A DNA stretch of 39,837 nt, from NCBI GenBank assembly GCA_001914785.1, contig MNDE01000126.1:1-39837 (forward strand), read 5' to 3'. The DNA is from Acidobacteria bacterium 13_2_20CM_57_17. Its GTDB lineage: Bacteria; Acidobacteriota; Terriglobia; Acidiferrales; UBA7541. Under the pieces are notes generated by a model, which saw only the letters and a program-made list of their open reading frames with translations, was not told the origin of the DNA and ran no database searches. The translations under genes were made by a program, and so were the position numbers. Shown piece after piece: positions 1 to 15,398 of this stretch. The number at the start of each line of letters is the position of its first letter. Positions within the stretch are counted from its first letter, which is position 1.

Positions 1-298
1 TCAGCATGAAGTGCGCGCCGTAATTGAAAAAAATGTAGGCGTGGCCGGGAGCGAGATACATCGAGCGAATGCGCGGAGTAGGGCCGCGGAAATGGTGCCC
101 GGCAGCATCGCCGGGCGGATACGCTTCCGTTTCCACGATGCGGCCGCTCAGCCGCCCCGTAGGAAGATCATGGACGACGACCTTTCCAATAAGAAAGCGG
201 GCGAGCTTGATAGTGTCCGGCGGAAGTGCGGAGCGGCGAAGAGGGCGAAGAGAGAATTCCTCTGAAGAGTTTTTGAGAGCAATGCGCGCCAAGGACAT
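1..298 (-). CDS. DNA-3-methyladenine glycosylase (AAG/MPG family), partial; 3' end lies outside the window
   Basis: Not in the ORF track because it is open at the edge. Minus-strand translation from ATG at 298: MSLARIALKNSSEEFSLRPLRRSALPPDTIKLARFLIGKVVVHDLPTGRLSGRIVETEAYPPGDAAGHHFRGPTPRIRSMYLAPGHAYIFFNYGAHFML; the motifs LxGRIVETEAY, H.FRG.TPR and PGHAYIFFNYG are AAG-family hallmarks. Confidence 0.9.
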   Translation of the reverse strand, partial: MSLARIALKNSSEEFSLRPLRRSALPPDTIKLARFLIGKVVVHDLPTGRLSGRIVETEAYPPGDAAGHHFRGPTPRIRSMYLAPGHAYIFFNYGAHFML

Positions 299-309
299 GG
301 GACGCCGGC

Positions 310-681
310 TCAGCGGGACGGCAGCTTCTGCAAGTCTTCGGGAGAAACGAGATCCTGATACTCCTTGTGCTTGCGAATGAAACTGGAGGCGTAGGGACAG
401 AGCGGAACAACCCCGAGACGCTTCTCACGGGCGAAATCGAGCGCAAACCGCGTAAGTTTTGCCGCCAGCCCCTGGCCTTCGAGCGACTGTGGCACTTCGG
501 TGTGAAGCAATACGATGCGGTCGGGAGAAAGGCGATAGGTGAGCAGGGCGCGAAGTCCGTTGATGTACAGCTCGAATCGGTGCGCTTCTTCGTTGTGCGT
601 TACGGCGACGCTATTCAGGTTCACGTCCACGGATTCGCTCATTGGGCCTCCGAGTGACCGGGAAAGTCTATCAGGGAACAT
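310..681 (-). CDS. GNAT-like N-acetyltransferase (short YjdJ-type)
   Basis: 123 aa; contains VPQSLEGQGLAAKLTRFALDFAREKRLGVVPLCPYASSFIRKHKEYQDL, typical of the small GCN5-related family. Start may be internal at MSESVDV. Confidence 0.8.
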   Translation of the reverse strand: MFPDRLSRSLGGPMSESVDVNLNSVAVTHNEEAHRFELYINGLRALLTYRLSPDRIVLLHTEVPQSLEGQGLAAKLTRFALDFAREKRLGVVPLCPYASSFIRKHKEYQDLVSPEDLQKLPSR

Positions 682-686
682 GGATA

Positions 687-1133
687 CTACGGCGTAGGCG
701 AGTCGGAAGGCTCGTTGTTGAAGAGGCGGGCCAGTTCCGCGTGGTCAATGACGACCGCAGGGTCGCGCTGGATGGCGTCGAAGTATTTTTTCTGGAATGC
801 GTCGCCGGATTCCGTGGGAACAAACATTTTCCGCGCAAGAGCGATGGCGCTGCTGGTGTATTCCGGGGTGACAGGCTCCTTGGCGGTTAGCGTTTCATCG
901 ATCCGCACCACGAATTCGGAAATGTTGTGGAGCCAGGCGAACTGCGCGTGGTCGATGACCAGTTGGAAAAGCTCGCCGGTGGTGACGTGGCCGTTCTCGC
1001 GTTCGTATTCGCGCCGCTCCATGTTGAGAAGAGTCTTGTGGAGGCGGAGAAGAGCGAGTCGGAGGGTGAGCAGCTTCTCGCGGGCCGGGGAATCGTTGTT
1101 CGTGGGAAACAAATTGGAGTTTGTTGAATCCAT
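687..1133 (-). CDS. conserved hypothetical protein
   Basis: 148 aa ORF co-directional with its neighbours; no family recognised with certainty. Confidence 0.6.
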   Translation of the reverse strand: MDSTNSNLFPTNNDSPAREKLLTLRLALLRLHKTLLNMERREYERENGHVTTGELFQLVIDHAQFAWLHNISEFVVRIDETLTAKEPVTPEYTSSAIALARKMFVPTESGDAFQKKYFDAIQRDPAVVIDHAELARLFNNEPSDSPTP

Positions 1134-1249
1134 TTTTCGAATAACACCTCTATTCTCCGATAGTCAGCGCGCAATTTCAAAACGAATACAAAGACCCCTT
1201 CCACAGAGTTCGCGGAGAGCTCAGAGCACGCGCAGGAGAGGGCCGAAGG

Positions 1250-2179
1250 TTAGTTGTGGTAGCGCTGCTCGCCGACGGGAAGCGGGATGGGAAGGCGGTT
1301 GCCCGCCGGCGGGAGCGGGCACGTTGAATAGGGAGTGTAGGCGCACGGAGGGTTTTCCAGGCGATTGAAATCGAGTACAAGCTCGCCGGGTTTATCGAGG
1401 CCGTTGGTGGGAAAGCCAGTGTAGAGAAACCGGCAGGCCCCATAAGTAGTTGTTGCGCTGGTCTTATCGCGAAGAATGAAGAAAAGTTTTGCGACAGCCG
1501 GATCCTCAAGAACGGGCTCCAGCCGAAATGTCATTCCCGCGAGCTTGAATTCCGCGACGCCAGGAACGGGTTGGTCGTAGCTGGTGCCGACGAGTGTGGC
1601 GAGCGTAATCGTCTTGTGGGGGGAATAGGGAATCCATCGTGCGATGACGCGAAAAGCGATATCGGGCTCGTACCATTTGAGTCCGTGGAAACCCGTGAGG
1701 GCGGGAGAATGAGAATCCTTGATGCGAAGGGCGAAGCGCGCTTCGCGGCGAATTACGTACATGTTGAGCGTACCGATAGTGAGATGCAGAGAAACCTTGT
1801 CTTTGTTTGCTTCGGCGCGCAGAGCTTGTGGTTTTGCAGGAGTGCCGGCGACAAGGAAATCCGGAGGGAATCCCCTGGCTGGAGGATTCAGCGTGACGGT
1901 TTCGCCTTCGAGGTGAAGGACGGCGAGATGAGCGGGTCCGGAGACGAGATGGATCTTGTTGTCAGGTGCGGAGCCGACGGAATTGTCTCCAGACTGGAGC
2001 CATTCTAGACCGGCGAGAGAAAGCCAGCCGTCCGGCTTGAGAAGGTCTGCTCTATGTGCTTCGCGCCAGTTGGCGTTCTCTTTTTCCCACGGATTTTCCT
2101 GCGAGGTTGCAGTCGCGGGCAGCAGTGCGAACAGAAGAGCAATGAAAAGCCAGCAGGCCGAACGATTCCTGAAGCGCAT
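1250..2179 (-). CDS. DUF1684-like secreted protein
   Basis: 309 aa with N-terminal signal peptide; WREAHRADLLKPDGWLSLAGLEWLQSGDNSVGS and NPPCAYTPYSTCPLPPAGNRLPIPLPVGEQRY are typical of DUF1684. Confidence 0.85.
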   Translation of the reverse strand: MRFRNRSACWLFIALLFALLPATATSQENPWEKENANWREAHRADLLKPDGWLSLAGLEWLQSGDNSVGSAPDNKIHLVSGPAHLAVLHLEGETVTLNPPARGFPPDFLVAGTPAKPQALRAEANKDKVSLHLTIGTLNMYVIRREARFALRIKDSHSPALTGFHGLKWYEPDIAFRVIARWIPYSPHKTITLATLVGTSYDQPVPGVAEFKLAGMTFRLEPVLEDPAVAKLFFILRDKTSATTTYGACRFLYTGFPTNGLDKPGELVLDFNRLENPPCAYTPYSTCPLPPAGNRLPIPLPVGEQRYHN

Positions 2180-2523
2180 GAGAAAGTATACCGCGAAAGA
2201 AAAAACGCTGAAAATGAAGATAAGGAAAAGGACGTGAGTGCGCGGCAGATTACCTGGGCGCGATGTTTTTTGAACTGGAAACGGATTGGTGGGTGGCAGA
2301 AATATTCGTCCCCGGTATCACGAAGTATACCCGAGCCGCTGGAAACACGCTGGTCAGCTAAATCGATTCTCCAATGCATTCGCGCAATTCTTTGATTGCT
2401 GGAAATGTAACCTCGACGTCCTCTTCGTTATCAAATGACAGTAGTCAAATCATGCTTTCCTCAGCGGAAATGATCGTGTTGATCCGGTTCCGTGGGGCGA
2501 AGACAAAAGGAAAATAGGCCCTT

Positions 2524-2928
2524 ATGAGAAAGACAAAACTTACCGCAGGACTACTGGCATTTTCTTTGTTGCTTGCAGTCGGCGCCATCGCCGGTAATTC
2601 CAACAGGGGCACGCTGAAGGTCGACGAAACCGTTACTGTTGCTGGCAAGCAGCTCCCGGCCGGTCAGTATCAAGTGGAATGGTCTGGAAGCGGCCCGAGC
2701 GTGGAAGTCAGCATTTCCAACGGCAGAGATACGGTAGCCAAGGTCCCGGCGCAGCTTGTTCCGCTAAAGAAGGCCGAGCCCGCAGGTGGCTATTCCACCA
2801 GCACCGACCAGGCTGGTAACAAGGCCCTGACGGGAATTTTGTTCGGTGGCAAGAAGTATCAGTTGTCCATCGGCGATGCATCCGCGGCAACGGCCACACC
2901 TTCGGATAAAACGCAAGGGAGCAACTAG
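2524..2928 (+). CDS. small secreted hypothetical protein
   Basis: 134 aa, clear signal peptide MRKTKLTAGLLAFSLLLAVGAIAG, followed by a rho-independent terminator. Confidence 0.7.
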   Translation: MRKTKLTAGLLAFSLLLAVGAIAGNSNRGTLKVDETVTVAGKQLPAGQYQVEWSGSGPSVEVSISNGRDTVAKVPAQLVPLKKAEPAGGYSTSTDQAGNKALTGILFGGKKYQLSIGDASAATATPSDKTQGSN

Positions 2929-2969
2929 CCTAGTCATTTCTTCGTGAGGCTCATAGATGGAAGAAAGGA

Positions 2970-2993
2970 GGGACCAATCGGTCCCTTTTTTTT
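2970..2993 (+). terminator. rho-independent terminator
   Basis: GGGACC-AATC-GGTCCC followed by eight T residues. Confidence 0.9.
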
Positions 2994-3226
2994 CGTCTAT
3001 GTGCAATTAGGCCATAGGAACTCAAGAGCATTGTTACCCGACGCTAAGAGAGACTCCTGACTCGAACCAGCTGACGTGATCTAACAGAACCAGTTCCCAT
3101 GAGTGTATGATTTGGAGCGTTTGGCCCTTTGGGGGTTGGCCTTTTCTTGAAATGGATTGAGTCTATTGCCCTGGCGGAGCGCAATTCCCGACAGCAGTTC
3201 TGGTTTTTAGCATTGGAGGAAGCTTC

Positions 3227-4417
3227 ATGATTGTAGGTGTGCCTCGAGAGAGTTTTCCTGGAGAGCGGCGCGTTGCATTGGTGCCGGCGGTCATTCCAAA
3301 TTTGACAAAAGCGGGCCTGGAAGTGGTCGTGGAGGCTGGTGTCGGCATGGCTGCAGGCTACCCGGATGCGGACTTCGTGGCAAAGGGCGCCAAGATTGTC
3401 TCTGCTCGCGCTGAAGTCTTTCGCGCCGCTGACATCGTTGTGCAAATTCTTTGTTATGGATCGAACGACAAAACCGGCAAAGCCGACGTTCCTCTTTTTC
3501 GCAGCGGCCAAGTGCTCGTTGGGTTCTTGCGGCCGCTCGGCTCGATAGAAACCATTCGGGAAATTGCCGCGAAGGGCGTCATTTCGTTTTCCGTGGAAAT
3601 GATGCCGCGAACGACGCGCGCCCAGAGCATGGACGTGCTTTCTTCGATGGCTACAATTTGCGGCTACAAGGCAGTCGTTCTCGCTGCGGACACTTCGCCG
3701 CGTATCTTTCCGATGCTCACCACGGCAGCGGGAACGATTACTCCTGGGCGCGTTTTCGTGATTGGAGCGGGCGTTGCCGGTTTGCAGGCAATCGCTACGG
3801 CGCGGAGACTCGGCGCCGTGGCTTCGGCTTACGATCTGCGTCCCGCGGCGAAAGAACAAGTGCAGAGCCTCGGCGGGCGCTTCGTCGAACTTCCCATTGA
3901 AGCCAAGGATGCTGAGGATGCCCGCGGGTATGCGCGGCCACAGGACGAAACTTTTTACAAACGGCAGCGCGAACTCCTGGGAAAGGTCGTGGCAGAGAGT
4001 GACGTGGTGATCACCGCCGCGGTCATTCCCGGAAAGAAGCCTCCGATTCTCGTGACTAAGGAAATGGTCGGGAGCATGGCACCGGGATCAGTCATCGTCG
4101 ATCTGGCCGGAGAACGCGGCGGCAACTGCGAGCTTACTCGCCCCGGAGAAATTGCCGTGGAGCACGGAGCGACCATCATCGGATGGTTCAACCTGGCCAG
4201 CACCGTGCCGTATCACGCCAGTCAGATGTACGCGCGAAACGTGAGCGCTTTCCTCCTGCATCTCGTGAAAGACGGAAAGCTGCAAGTGGATATGGACGAC
4301 GAAATCATTCGCGAGACGATGCTGACGCGCGGCGGGGAAGTGGTCAATGCGCGTGTGCGGGAATTCTTTTCGCTCCTGCCCTTGCCCGCGCAATCCAAGG
4401 AGATGGCCAAATCATGA
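3227..4417 (+). CDS. pntAA: NAD(P) transhydrogenase subunit alpha part 1
   Basis: 396 aa; MIVGVPRESFPGERRVALVP start, VIGAGVAGLQAIATARRLGAVASAYDLRPAAKEQVQSLGG Rossmann region, and overlap with membrane subunits downstream. Confidence 0.95.
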   Translation: MIVGVPRESFPGERRVALVPAVIPNLTKAGLEVVVEAGVGMAAGYPDADFVAKGAKIVSARAEVFRAADIVVQILCYGSNDKTGKADVPLFRSGQVLVGFLRPLGSIETIREIAAKGVISFSVEMMPRTTRAQSMDVLSSMATICGYKAVVLAADTSPRIFPMLTTAAGTITPGRVFVIGAGVAGLQAIATARRLGAVASAYDLRPAAKEQVQSLGGRFVELPIEAKDAEDARGYARPQDETFYKRQRELLGKVVAESDVVITAAVIPGKKPPILVTKEMVGSMAPGSVIVDLAGERGGNCELTRPGEIAVEHGATIIGWFNLASTVPYHASQMYARNVSAFLLHLVKDGKLQVDMDDEIIRETMLTRGGEVVNARVREFFSLLPLPAQSKEMAKS

Positions 4418-4719
4418 AGCTGGATTTGCTTACGAGCCTCTACGTTTTCATGTTGGCCGCATTTATCGGATTTGAAGTGATACGGCGCGTTTCGCCTCTT
4501 CTGCACACCCCCTTGATGTCTTTGACGAACGCGCTCGATGCCATCGCGGTTGTCGGAGCCATCCTTCTTGCCGGTGAATACCATGCGCACGGGGCCATGC
4601 TTGCCAAGATTCTCGGAACCATCGCGATCGTTGCCGCTACCAGCAATATCGTCGGCGGGTTTCTGATTACTGACCGCATGCTGAGAATGTTCAAAGCGAG
4701 CGGGCCCAAGAAACCATGA
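4414..4719 (+). CDS. pntAB: NAD(P) transhydrogenase subunit alpha part 2 (membrane)
   Basis: In-frame ATG at 4414 in an ATGA overlap with pntAA; MKLDLLTSLYVFMLAAFIGFEVIRRVSPLLHTPLMSLTNALDAIAVVGAI and VGGFLITDRMLRMFK. Confidence 0.93.
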   Translation: MKLDLLTSLYVFMLAAFIGFEVIRRVSPLLHTPLMSLTNALDAIAVVGAILLAGEYHAHGAMLAKILGTIAIVAATSNIVGGFLITDRMLRMFKASGPKKP

Positions 4720-6110
4720 CCAACCTGCCTGGCATGGAAAGCATTATCGAAATCACCTATCTGATTGCCACCGCGCTTTTCATTCTTTCGCTCAAGTGGC
4801 TGAGCTCTCCGGCTACCGCTCGCCGCGGAGTTTTTGCCGGCGAACTCGGCATGCTGCTGGCGATTGCCGGCACGCTACTGCATCGCGGCATCGTCGAATA
4901 CAAATGGATCGTGATCGCTCTCGTGCTGGGAACGATCATCGGTGTGCCTCTTGGCGAAGTGGCCATGGCCGCGGTGCCGCAGCGGACCGCTCTCAGCCAC
5001 GCATTTGGCGCGCTGTGTGTGACCCTGGTTGGCGCGGCGGAATTTTATTTGCGCACGCCGGACGTGCCGCGTTTCATGATGGGCGTCCTTTCGCTGGAAG
5101 TTATCCTCGGTTCGCTGACGTTTACCGGCAGCCTTATGGCCGCGGGAAAATTGCAGGAAGTCCTGCCGCAGCGGCCCATCACGTATAAGGGACAGAACAT
5201 CGTCAACCTCGGGCTCCTGGGAGTCGCAATCGTTGTCGCCGGGATGCTGGTGGCGCATCCGGAGAAGACGCAGCTATTCCCGCTGATCGTCGGCATCCCG
5301 CTTCTGTTCGGCGTGATGATGATTATTCCCATCGGCGGAGCGGACATGCCGACAGTGATCTCTCTTTTGAATTCCTACGCGGGGCTATCGGCTGCAGCGA
5401 TGGGCTTCGTGCTCGACAGCAAACTGCTGATCATTGCGGGTGCGCTCGACGGCGCCTCCGGCTTCATTCTTTCCGTGAACATGTCAAAAGCGATGAACCG
5501 CTCGTTTTCAAACGTACTTTTTGGAGCGTTTGGACAGGAGCAGACTGCGGCAGCAACCAAGCAGGAAGCGCGGCCGGTGCGCAGCGCGACGCCCGAAGAA
5601 GCCGCGGCGATTCTCGCAGCTGCGAATAAAGTGGTCATTGTGCCCGGTTACGGAATGGCCGTAGCGCAGGCGCAACACAAAGTGCGCGAACTATACGATG
5701 CGCTCACAAAGCGTGGCGTCGACGTAAAATTTGGCATTCATCCGGTCGCCGGCCGCATGCCCGGGCACATGAATGTTCTTCTCGCCGAAGCGGACATTCC
5801 TTACGATAAGTTGCTGGACATGGACGAAATCAACGGGGAATTTCCGCAAACCGATGTGGCGCTGGTGATCGGTGCGAACGACGTGACCAATCCCGCAGCG
5901 CGCACTGACGCTTCAAGCCCGATTTTTGGCATGCCCATTCTCGATGTGGACAAGGCGCGCACGGTGATGGTGATCAAACGCAGCATGGGGGCGGGGTTTG
6001 CGGGAATTGAAAACCCGCTCTACTACCTCGACAAAACGCTCATGCTCTTCGGCGATGCAAAATCTTTCGTAGGCGCGATTGTGCGCGAGCTCGGCGGCGG
6101 CCACGAATAG
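4716..6110 (+). CDS. pntB: NAD(P) transhydrogenase subunit beta
   Basis: 464 aa; VPGYGMAVAQAQHKVRELYDALTKRGVDVKFGIHPVAGRMPGHMNVLLAEADIPYD and ANDVTNPAA motifs. Confidence 0.95.
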   Translation: MTNLPGMESIIEITYLIATALFILSLKWLSSPATARRGVFAGELGMLLAIAGTLLHRGIVEYKWIVIALVLGTIIGVPLGEVAMAAVPQRTALSHAFGALCVTLVGAAEFYLRTPDVPRFMMGVLSLEVILGSLTFTGSLMAAGKLQEVLPQRPITYKGQNIVNLGLLGVAIVVAGMLVAHPEKTQLFPLIVGIPLLFGVMMIIPIGGADMPTVISLLNSYAGLSAAAMGFVLDSKLLIIAGALDGASGFILSVNMSKAMNRSFSNVLFGAFGQEQTAAATKQEARPVRSATPEEAAAILAAANKVVIVPGYGMAVAQAQHKVRELYDALTKRGVDVKFGIHPVAGRMPGHMNVLLAEADIPYDKLLDMDEINGEFPQTDVALVIGANDVTNPAARTDASSPIFGMPILDVDKARTVMVIKRSMGAGFAGIENPLYYLDKTLMLFGDAKSFVGAIVRELGGGHE

Positions 6111-12006: not shown

Positions 12007-13401
12007 CTACGCGTGTGCTTCCGGCGCGTGCCCATTCGAGGGCGTGAGCGGCACCGCGCCGTGAAACTGTTCCGCCTCCGTCGACCCCGCCAGTGCCGTG
12101 GTGGAAGAATTGCCACTGGAAACCACCTGTGCGATTTCGTCGAAATAACCCGTACCGACGAAGCGCTGGTGCGTCACCGCGCGGTAGCCCAGCTCCTGCG
12201 AGGCGAATTCTTCCTGCTGCAGTTTTGAGTACGCCGTCATGCCCGCCTGCGCATAGCCGCGCGCCAGATGGAACATGGACATATTGAGCGCGTGGAATCC
12301 CGCCAGCGTGACGAACTGGAACTTGTAGCCCATCTTGCCCAGTTCTTGCTGGAAGTTCGCGATGGTCACGTCGTCGAGCTTCTTCTTCCAGTTGAACGAC
12401 GGCGAACAGTTGTACGCCAGCAGTTTGCCGGGAAATTTCGCATGGATGGCTTCTGCGAATTTCTTCGCTTCCGCGAGATCCGGCGTCGACGTTTCGCACC
12501 AGAGCATGTCGGCGTACGGGGCATAAGCCAGCCCGCGCGCGATGGCCGCATCAATGCCCCCACGATATTCGTAAAAACCTTCCGGCGTGCGTTCGCCGTA
12601 AATGAACTCGCGGTCGCGCGGGTCGGCGTCGGAAAGTAGGAGACCGGCGGAGTTGGCATCTGTCCGCGCGATCAGAATCGTCGGCACGCCGCAAACGTCG
12701 GCAGCCAGTCGCGCCGCCACCAGTTTCTCGATGAACTCCCGCGTGGGCACAACGACTTTGCCGCCCAGATGCCCGCATTTCTTTGCGGAAGAAAGTTGAT
12801 CTTCGAAGTGCACCCCCGCCGCGCCTGCTTCGATCATCGCTTTCATCAACTCGTAAGCATTCAGCGAGCCGCCAAAGCCGGCCTCCGCATCCGCGACAAT
12901 CGGCGCAAACCAATACGTGCCGGACTTCTTGCCCTCGGCGGATTCAATCTGGTCCGCACGCATTAACGCGCGATTGGTGCGCTTCACCAGGTTCGGCGCG
13001 GAGTCGCAAGGATAAAGACTCTGGTCGGGGTACACGTCGCCCGCGGTATTGCCGTCAGCGGCAACTTGCCAGCCGCTTCCATAAATCGCCTTCAGTCCTG
13101 CCTGCACCATCTCAATCGCCTGATTGCCGGTGATGGCCCCGAGCGCGGGAACGTAAGCGTCCGTGTGCATCAGATTCCAGAGCCGCTCTGCTCCCAGCCG
13201 CGCCAGCGTGTACTCGATCTGGATCGAGCCGCGCAGCCGCAGCACATCTGAGTAGGAGTAAGGACGCGTGATGCCGGACCAGCGGGGATCAGTGCTCCAA
13301 TAGTTGAGATGTTTGTTGCTTTTGGCATTCCCGTTCCCGTTTGCCCTGTTCGTTCCCTTTGTCGACATTTTGCTATTCCTTACCTTTCCTGCGGCATCCA
13401 A
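12007..13401 (-). CDS. aceA: isocitrate lyase
   Basis: 464 aa; [24 protein letters not shown] catalytic motif, [45 protein letters not shown]. Confidence 0.97.
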
Positions 13402-13423: not shown

Positions 13424-15034
13424 TCACGCTGGACTAAACTCTTCGCGCCGGATCATTTCTTCACTGATCCTCCGCGCCTCGCGAAGCGTAGCTTCCCTCC
13501 GCCCATCGCTGCTCTTCTCTGATTCGCGCAACAGGCGTTCAAGCTCTTCGTCAAACAGATCGCGGATAAATTCCGGCGCATGACGAACCGGCGTGCCATT
13601 CTCATCCGCGACCTCGACAGTGTTTGAGTGCCTCATGCGCTGCGCGATCATCAGCCGGTAGATGCGATCGGTGGCGAGATCTTCCATGTAGCCGTCCAGC
13701 AGGCTAGCGCCCTTGCCATTGAGAACGCCGTTGCGATAGCGAATCACCGTGCGAACCGCCGCGCGTGTTCCTGCTAACGTGCGCTTGCCGACTCCCTTCG
13801 GCAGCGGCCGCAGATCGGGATGCGTGTTGCCATCCGCAGGGCGCGCCTGAAGTTGATTCGGGGCAGGGAATTGGCTTACCGCGATTTCGTTTTGATCGGG
13901 GTGGCCCGTCCACGCGCCGTCCATCAGCGAATTGGCTTCGTTCTTTTTGTCTTCCGCAAGGATCTTCAGTGCTCGCGTGTTCAGCTCCGCATCTTCCCGG
14001 CTGGGATAGAGAGCGGTCATGCCGCCGATGGCGAGCATCCCGTGCTTGTGGCAAATGTCCGGCATGAGATTGCGCAAGTTTTGGAAAAACGCCACATTGT
14101 GCGGAATCGTGTTGCGGTCGGGGAGTACCCACTCCGGATTTTCCAGATTGAAGTGAATCAAGCTGGCCATGTAATCCCAGCGTCCGAGGTTCAGCCCCAG
14201 GATGTGATCGCGCAAATTCCAGGAAAACTCTTCCATCTGAAACGCTAGCGGATGCGATTCCACCAGCGCCATGCACTTGATGACATTCGTAGGCAAACCC
14301 TTCAGGCGCGCAATCATTTGGAAAAGATCGCGCCACCACAGAGCTTCGTCGGCGGATTCCGACTTCGGAATGTAAATGCACAGCGGATGCTTCAGCGAGC
14401 TGAAATCCACCTGATAAGCCACCATCGCGACGTCGAACAGTGAAGCGGGAAGTAATTCCCCTTGCAGAACGCCGGCCTGGTGCACGTGCAATCCGCGGGG
14501 CCGCGTGAAAATCACCGTGGAACTGGGATTGATGCCGACGGTTTTGTCGCGCTTCCGGTCAAAATACGTGAGCCGGCCCGCCAGCGCTTCGAGAATGTTC
14601 TTGATGCCGCGCGAATTGTGCTCCCAGGTATTGGCAGTGGAGTCTTCCAGATCAAGCATCACGCCGGGCGCGCCGGAATTCAGCATCTTCACCACGAGGT
14701 CGGCGTCATCGGCAGGCCCGGTCATCTGGTTCCGCTGATCGGCGCACCACGCGGGAATCTCGACACGCCAGGAATTCGTAGTGGCCACGGACGGCGGCAG
14801 GTAATCGGGAAGTTTGCCAGCCTGCGCTTCGGCCAGGGCAAAATCACGGCGTGCGACCAAAGCGCGCTGGCGCAAGGTTAGCGCGGCGTGCAGTGGCGCA
14901 AGGAATTCGAGAAAGCCCTCGGGCAGATCGCGAGCAGCATCGAAATCCGGCGGAGCGGAATTGACCGGAACGATGCGATTTGCGAAGGGCTGCGGCTCCA
15001 TTGACGGATTCGGTTTCGTCGTAGCAGATGCCAT
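13424..15034 (-). CDS. aceB: malate synthase
   Basis: 536 aa; [68 protein letters not shown]. Confidence 0.96.
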
Positions 15035-15258
15035 GATTTACCTGATCCCCTTCCCCTAACGAAAACGGGTGAAGGCCGGCCGGAAAGAGGGTAGGGCAAT
15101 TGGGAGGCCAATTGCCGCGCCAGCCGTGTTTCTAAAACCAAGCCGTTCAGATAGATAAGAGCATTGCCGCGTGGCAATCAAGCAGACGTGTAAAATTCCC
15201 GTCACCATGTCGAGAAATTTGCACACCAGTGGCGAGTATGTTCTCAACTTAGCCACAT

Positions 15259-15276
15259 TGTTCAATATGTTGAACA
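15259..15276. promoter_or_regulatory. putative IclR-family operator, site 1
   Basis: TGTTCA-ATATGT-TGAACA, with 7-bp perfect arms TGTTCAA/TTGAACA; abuts a second palindrome TGAACATATGTTCA at 15271-15284. Confidence 0.7.
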
Positions 15277-15334
15277 TATGTTCAGTTCTCTCTGATCCTT
15301 TGATACCTAACGCCAGCGTAGGGTTGCAAGCATC

Positions 15335-15352
15335 TGTTCAACATTCTGAACA
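15335..15352. promoter_or_regulatory. putative IclR-family operator, site 2
   Basis: TGTTCA-ACATTC-TGAACA, same 6-6-6 architecture as site 1, just upstream of a TATACT -10-like hexamer at 15360-15365. Confidence 0.7.
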
Positions 15353-15398
15353 TGTATTCTATACTGTGGACATAACCGGAACCTATAGGAGTCCGTCC

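Follow-up and report, generated by a model that had tools for sequence, protein, structure and literature searches.

Organization of the aceB-aceA locus

The analyzed DNA, a stretch of 39,837 nucleotides hereafter called the window, belongs to a draft genome of 4.58 Mb (191 contigs, approximately 78% complete), which was assigned to subdivision 2 (“gp2”) of the Acidobacteria on the basis of its named relatives. The window contains two genes of the glyoxylate shunt, a pathway needed for growth on acetate or fats. The malate synthase gene aceB and the isocitrate lyase gene aceA are both located on the minus strand with a gap of 22 bp, and we presume that they form an operon in which aceB is the first gene and aceA the second. 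A gene of an IclR-family regulator, preceded by the Shine-Dalgarno-like sequence AGGAG, lies to the right on the plus strand, and aceB is transcribed away from it. The region between the two divergent genes carries two palindromes, referred to below as operators 1 and 2 (Table 1). The malate synthase scored far under the cut-off of the malate synthase A equivalog and thus represents a divergent branch of that family. No aceK gene was identified adjoining aceA in the window.

Table 1. Genes and putative regulatory elements of the aceB-aceA locus, with positions in the window.
Feature	Position	Strand	Evidence or remark
aceA, isocitrate lyase	12007–13401	−	NCBIfam NF011645, 750 bits (cut-off 562); KKCGH motif present
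aceB, malate synthase A-like	13424–15034	−	Pfam MS_TIM-barrel, 1e-51; TIGR01344, 317 bits (cut-off 594.5)
Operator 1, boxes 1 and 2, TGTTCA-N6-TGAACA	15259–15276	+	Exact match (TGTTCAATATGTTGAACA); orthologous loci
Operator 1, box 3, TGTTCA	15279–15284	+	2 bp past the palindrome
Candidate aceB −10, TATCAA	15300–15305	−	Prediction
Candidate aceB −35, TTGCAA	15324–15329	−	Prediction; 5 bp from operator 2
Operator 2, boxes 1 and 2, TGTTCA-N6-TGAACA	15335–15352	+	Exact match (TGTTCAACATTCTGAACA); contains the predicted regulator −35, TTCAAC (15337–15342)
Operator 2, box 3, TATTCT (15355–15360), fused with the predicted regulator −10, TATACT (15360–15365)	15355–15365	+	
IclR-family regulator, 262 aa	15399–16187	+	Pfam HTH_IclR, 1.5e-15; IclR_C, 1.3e-51

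Both palindromes named in the original prediction matched TGTTCA-N6-TGAACA exactly and were 76 bp apart. The further palindrome reported to overlap the first one, TGAACATATGTTCA at 15271–15284, was also present and yielded a run of three half-sites, TGTTCA-N6-TGAACA-TA-TGTTCA, which agrees with the three-box architecture published for sites of the IclR family. The −10-like element TATACT described beside operator 2 directly followed TATTCT. Each operator consists of three boxes, with the third half-site (TTC core) immediately following the palindrome in the direction of the regulator, and both operators have the same orientation. According to the consensus given in PMC8222616, they combine a group 1-type palindrome with a third box that forms a group 2 pair.

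The whole-genome motif scan, a check that had been named beforehand, revealed exact TGTTCAN6TGAACA in three places of the 4.58-Mb draft genome, two of which are the operators described here, while the reversed control pattern had no matches in the same genome. Thus, the occurrence of the operator pair goes beyond chance. The third exact match (G000:C22:9060-9077, L031:4061-4078) was located between two divergent XRE-type genes and is perhaps the operator of one of them; as it had no TTC third box, it was set aside. A wider regulon was likewise rejected, since among the 11 places of the genome with GTTCAN6TGAAC the third box was present only at the two operators and at C66:382.

Conservation of the probable operators and their association with the regulator

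A clear ortholog of the regulator was identified in 21 of the 36 genomes of the genus, in nearly all cases divergent to aceB. Subdivision 1 (“Candidatus Sulfotelmatobacter” and others) also has orthologs, as does one Pyrinomonadaceae genome. Conservation of the motif in related aceBA-iclR loci, another check named beforehand, was confirmed: paired palindromes were present in 53 of the 57 orthologous upstream regions of the regulator, mostly adjoining genes for isocitrate lyase, malate synthase, or both, with the reservation that the loci are related, so that such counts overstate the independent evidence. A few regulator-bearing loci had a single site (L077, L078, and L108) or a degenerate one (L110). 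Many of the compared genomes are metagenome assemblies, and the gp2 loci of the named set overlap in part with the G-numbered genomes. When the gp2 loci were aligned, the half-sites stood out against poorly conserved flanks.

The TTC core of the third box was found at a fixed offset in 49 of the 53 first sites and 51 of the 53 second sites of the orthologous loci. At other offsets it occurred at most five times (no more than four times at those further downstream positions that were counted), and at the mirror position on the opposite side zero times and once, respectively. All gp2 loci had GTTC as the third box of operator 1; the third box of operator 2 was TATTC, continuous with the TATACT predicted to be the −10 element of the regulator.

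The strict three-box pattern GTTCAN6TGAACN5TTC had 38 matches in the 21 regulator-bearing genomes of the genus, and 37 of them fell into this intergenic region, which argues against a wider regulon at the genus level as well. The 15 genomes of the genus without the ortholog contained six scattered matches, none of them at aceB. The 30 aceB loci were also compared for palindromes with no more than one mismatch, which were present in 19 of the 21 loci with an adjacent intact regulator vs. 1 of the 9 without it (Fisher p = 6e-5, uncorrected for relatedness).

Several rearranged loci illustrated the same association. In G009, aceBA lies on a separate contig without a site, and the regulator retains a site over its own promoter (L048 and L077). 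In G057, aceB is located elsewhere without sites, and the regulator lies beside aceA with both sites (L060 and L024). Only a C-terminal remnant of the regulator is left in G024, which lacks the sites (L045); G018 has no regulator and retains one palindrome without the strict third box (L049). At locus L108, the regulator (4001–4783) and an exact site with the third box (3343) adjoin shunt enzymes (2–3138) that are non-orthologous to those of the window (29% identity for malate synthase and 36% for isocitrate lyase), an apparent case of enzyme replacement under the same regulator. In several gp2 genomes in which aceB is not accompanied by the regulator, a TPR-repeat protein is encoded divergently next to aceB (L048:2-1375, L053:1-1320, and L054:3293-4558).

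When 396 acidobacterial genomes were scanned blindly for site pairs spaced 62–90 bp apart, eight loci were detected. Seven of them adjoined aceA or aceB; six of these seven also carried the regulator, and one was located near the end of its contig. The remaining locus had three overlapping palindromes and lay in a region of conjugation-type genes. The comparison of loci establishes, at the sequence level, the two sites, the third box, and their co-conservation with the regulator and the shunt genes, and the two palindromes are very probably operators of the divergent IclR-family regulator.

Relationship to known IclR-family regulators

E. coli IclR is the repressor of aceBAK, and the original prediction relied on this analogy. 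The regulator encoded in the window belongs to the IclR family, since both the N-terminal winged helix-turn-helix domain (PF09339) and the C-terminal effector domain (PF01614) were detected above the gathering cut-offs. However, it scored 130.3 bits against the E. coli IclR equivalog model NF008601, whose cut-off is 380. The KdgR (185 bits) and BhcR (NF045644, 180.3 bits vs. a cut-off of 350) models were nearer than IclR, and both scores were below the models' own cut-offs. In IclR, glyoxylate or pyruvate is held by the residues G160, A161, D212, S239, and S241 (PMC11323563). The window regulator has S, V, D, G, and S at these positions, so that three of the five differ, and the glycine at position 239 was shared by 52 of 53 orthologs and by none of nine relatives at a greater distance. 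On the basis of the family cut-offs and the pocket residues, we rejected the protein as an equivalog of E. coli IclR.

The two systems share an IclR-family protein over malate synthase and isocitrate lyase genes, a role that is putative for the window protein. They differ in the pocket residues, in the absence of aceK next to aceA in the window, and in the operator, which for E. coli IclR is cited as TGGAAATNATTTCCA (PMC8222616), a motif unlike the one described here. The analogy is thus weakened. For the proposed control of aceB-aceA by a local IclR-family protein through two operators, linkage of the regulator to the shunt genes and conservation of the operators were observed, and the sites follow the regulator; overall, the original prediction was partly supported. 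The effector may be other than glyoxylate. We tentatively suggest, though with somewhat less than even confidence, a widespread acidobacterial shunt regulator whose conserved pocket (F143, M154, S160, V161, A220, and G239 in E. coli IclR numbering) would sense neither glyoxylate nor pyruvate but some different metabolite; tandem three-box operators would flank the aceB promoter on both sides and let a single protein switch both the pathway and the regulator, with box 3 of operator 2 doubling as the −10 region of the regulator.

BhcR, the regulator of the beta-hydroxyaspartate cycle in Paracoccus denitrificans (PMC11323563), is also an IclR-family protein encoded divergently from a glyoxylate-assimilation operon, with an intergenic palindromic site and two predicted promoters. 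It differs from the window regulator in the pathway and pocket residues, as well as in the family score given above.

Three-box sites were predicted for 32 orthologous groups of the IclR family comprising 199 proteins (Suvorova and Gelfand, 2021, PMC8222616). That work lists PcaU, PobR, and HmgR as regulators with such sites and cites PcaU as requiring its third box. Its sites share with those of the window a palindrome with about 6-bp spacing and an outer direct half-site, and the window half-sites are close to two of its consensuses, NGTYCRAW4TYGRACN and TGRAACAN1-2TGTTYCA. Local regulation combined with autoregulation is also usual there. In contrast to the single sites or the tandem sites 18–22 bp apart described in PMC8222616, the acidobacterial operators form a tandem pair about 74 bp apart. 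The acidobacterial shunt regulator is a further difference, the phylum being absent from the main text and the taxonomic table of that paper, whose supplement may hold an entry. No description of this acidobacterial system was found in the literature searched. The operator pair very probably constitutes a genuine, though unexceptional, type of local gene switch. As three-box IclR-family sites were already known (PMC8222616), the acidobacterial operator pair appears, by its sequence, to be a well-supported addition to this group.

Predicted promoters and a model of regulation

Of the promoter registers scored in the gp2 region, that of the regulator ranked highest (z = 5.1), with the −35 element within the operator 2 palindrome and a 17-bp spacer. 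For aceB, the best minus-strand register in subdivision 1 comprised a TTGACC-like −35 near operator 2 and a TANGNT-like −10 located 17 bp further on, between the operators. The candidate aceB −10 of the window coincides in place with this well-scored promoter. In most gp2 loci, a weaker TTGC-N17-18-TANNAA was found at the equivalent place, and a second gp2 register with the −35 in site 1 had a similar score. The predicted aceB start falls immediately ahead of the third box of operator 1.

Operator 2 spans the −35 to −10 region of the regulator, so that a protein bound there would be expected to silence the regulator gene. In the direction of aceB transcription, operator 2 is closely followed by the predicted −35, and the predicted aceB start is closely followed by operator 1; the pair would thus bracket the aceB promoter. 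In the model that we consider highly probable, the divergent regulator would act through two three-box operators, repressing its own gene and aceB-aceA until an effector is present, and would regulate little else. The regulator would bind both operators and thereby govern its own expression as well as that of the neighboring aceB-aceA operon; judged by the strict motif, it would have few or no other targets in the genome. Operator 1 would cover the first transcribed bases of aceB, and operator 2 would overlie the regulator's core promoter and abut the aceB promoter from behind. With both operators occupied, both genes would be repressed, and an effector signaling growth on C2 compounds or fatty acids would release the repression. 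The binding, the sign of the regulation, the promoter positions, and the effector are inferences.

Activation of aceB is the main rival to this model, because operator 2, centered about 50 bp ahead of the predicted aceB start and behind the predicted −35, is also located where an activator could sit. The protein might then be a dual regulator that represses its own gene from operator 2 and activates aceB from the same site, with operator 1 serving as a second, repressing or tuning site. Precedents exist in BhcR, which activates its operon in vivo and has been proposed to act both ways (PMC11323563), and in PcaU-type relatives with three-box sites (PMC8222616). However, the conservation of operator 1 at the predicted aceB start suits a block better than activation, and aceB is kept in genomes without the regulator, so the regulator need not be essential for its expression; we regard a dual role as possible but rather unlikely. 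Binding of the palindromes by another regulator, or their origin as chance or structural repeats beside a coincidental IclR-family neighbor, appears very improbable. Although the exact palindrome also occurs between the two XRE-type genes on another contig, the sites are lost and retained together with the regulator and match the IclR-family consensus, including the third box, and seven of the eight double sites lie at shunt genes.

The original prediction had further suggested looping between two sites spaced by nearly seven helical turns. A tetramer bridging the two operators and closing a phased loop of 73–76 bp over the aceB promoter would be consistent with the retention of the pair in 53 of 57 loci and with the ability of IclR-family proteins to bind as tetramers (PMC8222616). 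The inter-operator spacing was 71–76 bp in most loci, with a mode of 73–74 bp, and 63, 67, 69–70, or 79–86 bp in the others; L083 and L105 both had 73 bp, L105 being outside the lineage-level test. However, the 17 lineage-level spacings, chosen by hand and ranging from 63 to 86 bp, showed no periodicity of 10–11.5 bp (Rayleigh p = 0.38 at 10.5 bp). In addition, the 224-bp interval between aceB and site 1 was as constant in gp2 as the spacing between the sites (sd of 0.96 vs. 1.08). Conserved helical phasing is therefore unsupported and was rejected: the seven-turn spacing holds for the window copy, whereas the phase varies across the phylum. We consider phased looping improbable; a loop may be tolerant of phase.

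The proposed switch provides a testable rule for how assimilation of acetate and fatty acids is switched on in an abundant, mostly uncultivated soil phylum. It also extends the three-box group of IclR-family operators by a regulator from the Acidobacteria, and the natural variants (unlinked, truncated, and enzyme-swapped loci) can be used to probe the role of the third box.

Other sequence elements were also observed. Between aceB and operator 1, the block AATTTGCACA (15216–15225) and a TTTCC block left of site 1 are conserved in gp2 and are possibly a second regulator site or a promoter element. The AATTTGCACA 10-mer was not enriched within the window; it loosely resembles the TTTGCAAA-type sites of RamB/PrpR relatives, which we mention as a lead only. 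In G051, from a more distant family, a three-box match (G051:C329:747-770) is located where another IclR-family match (766–984, 48% identity over 73 residues) begins, and this locus may encode a related autoregulated regulator.
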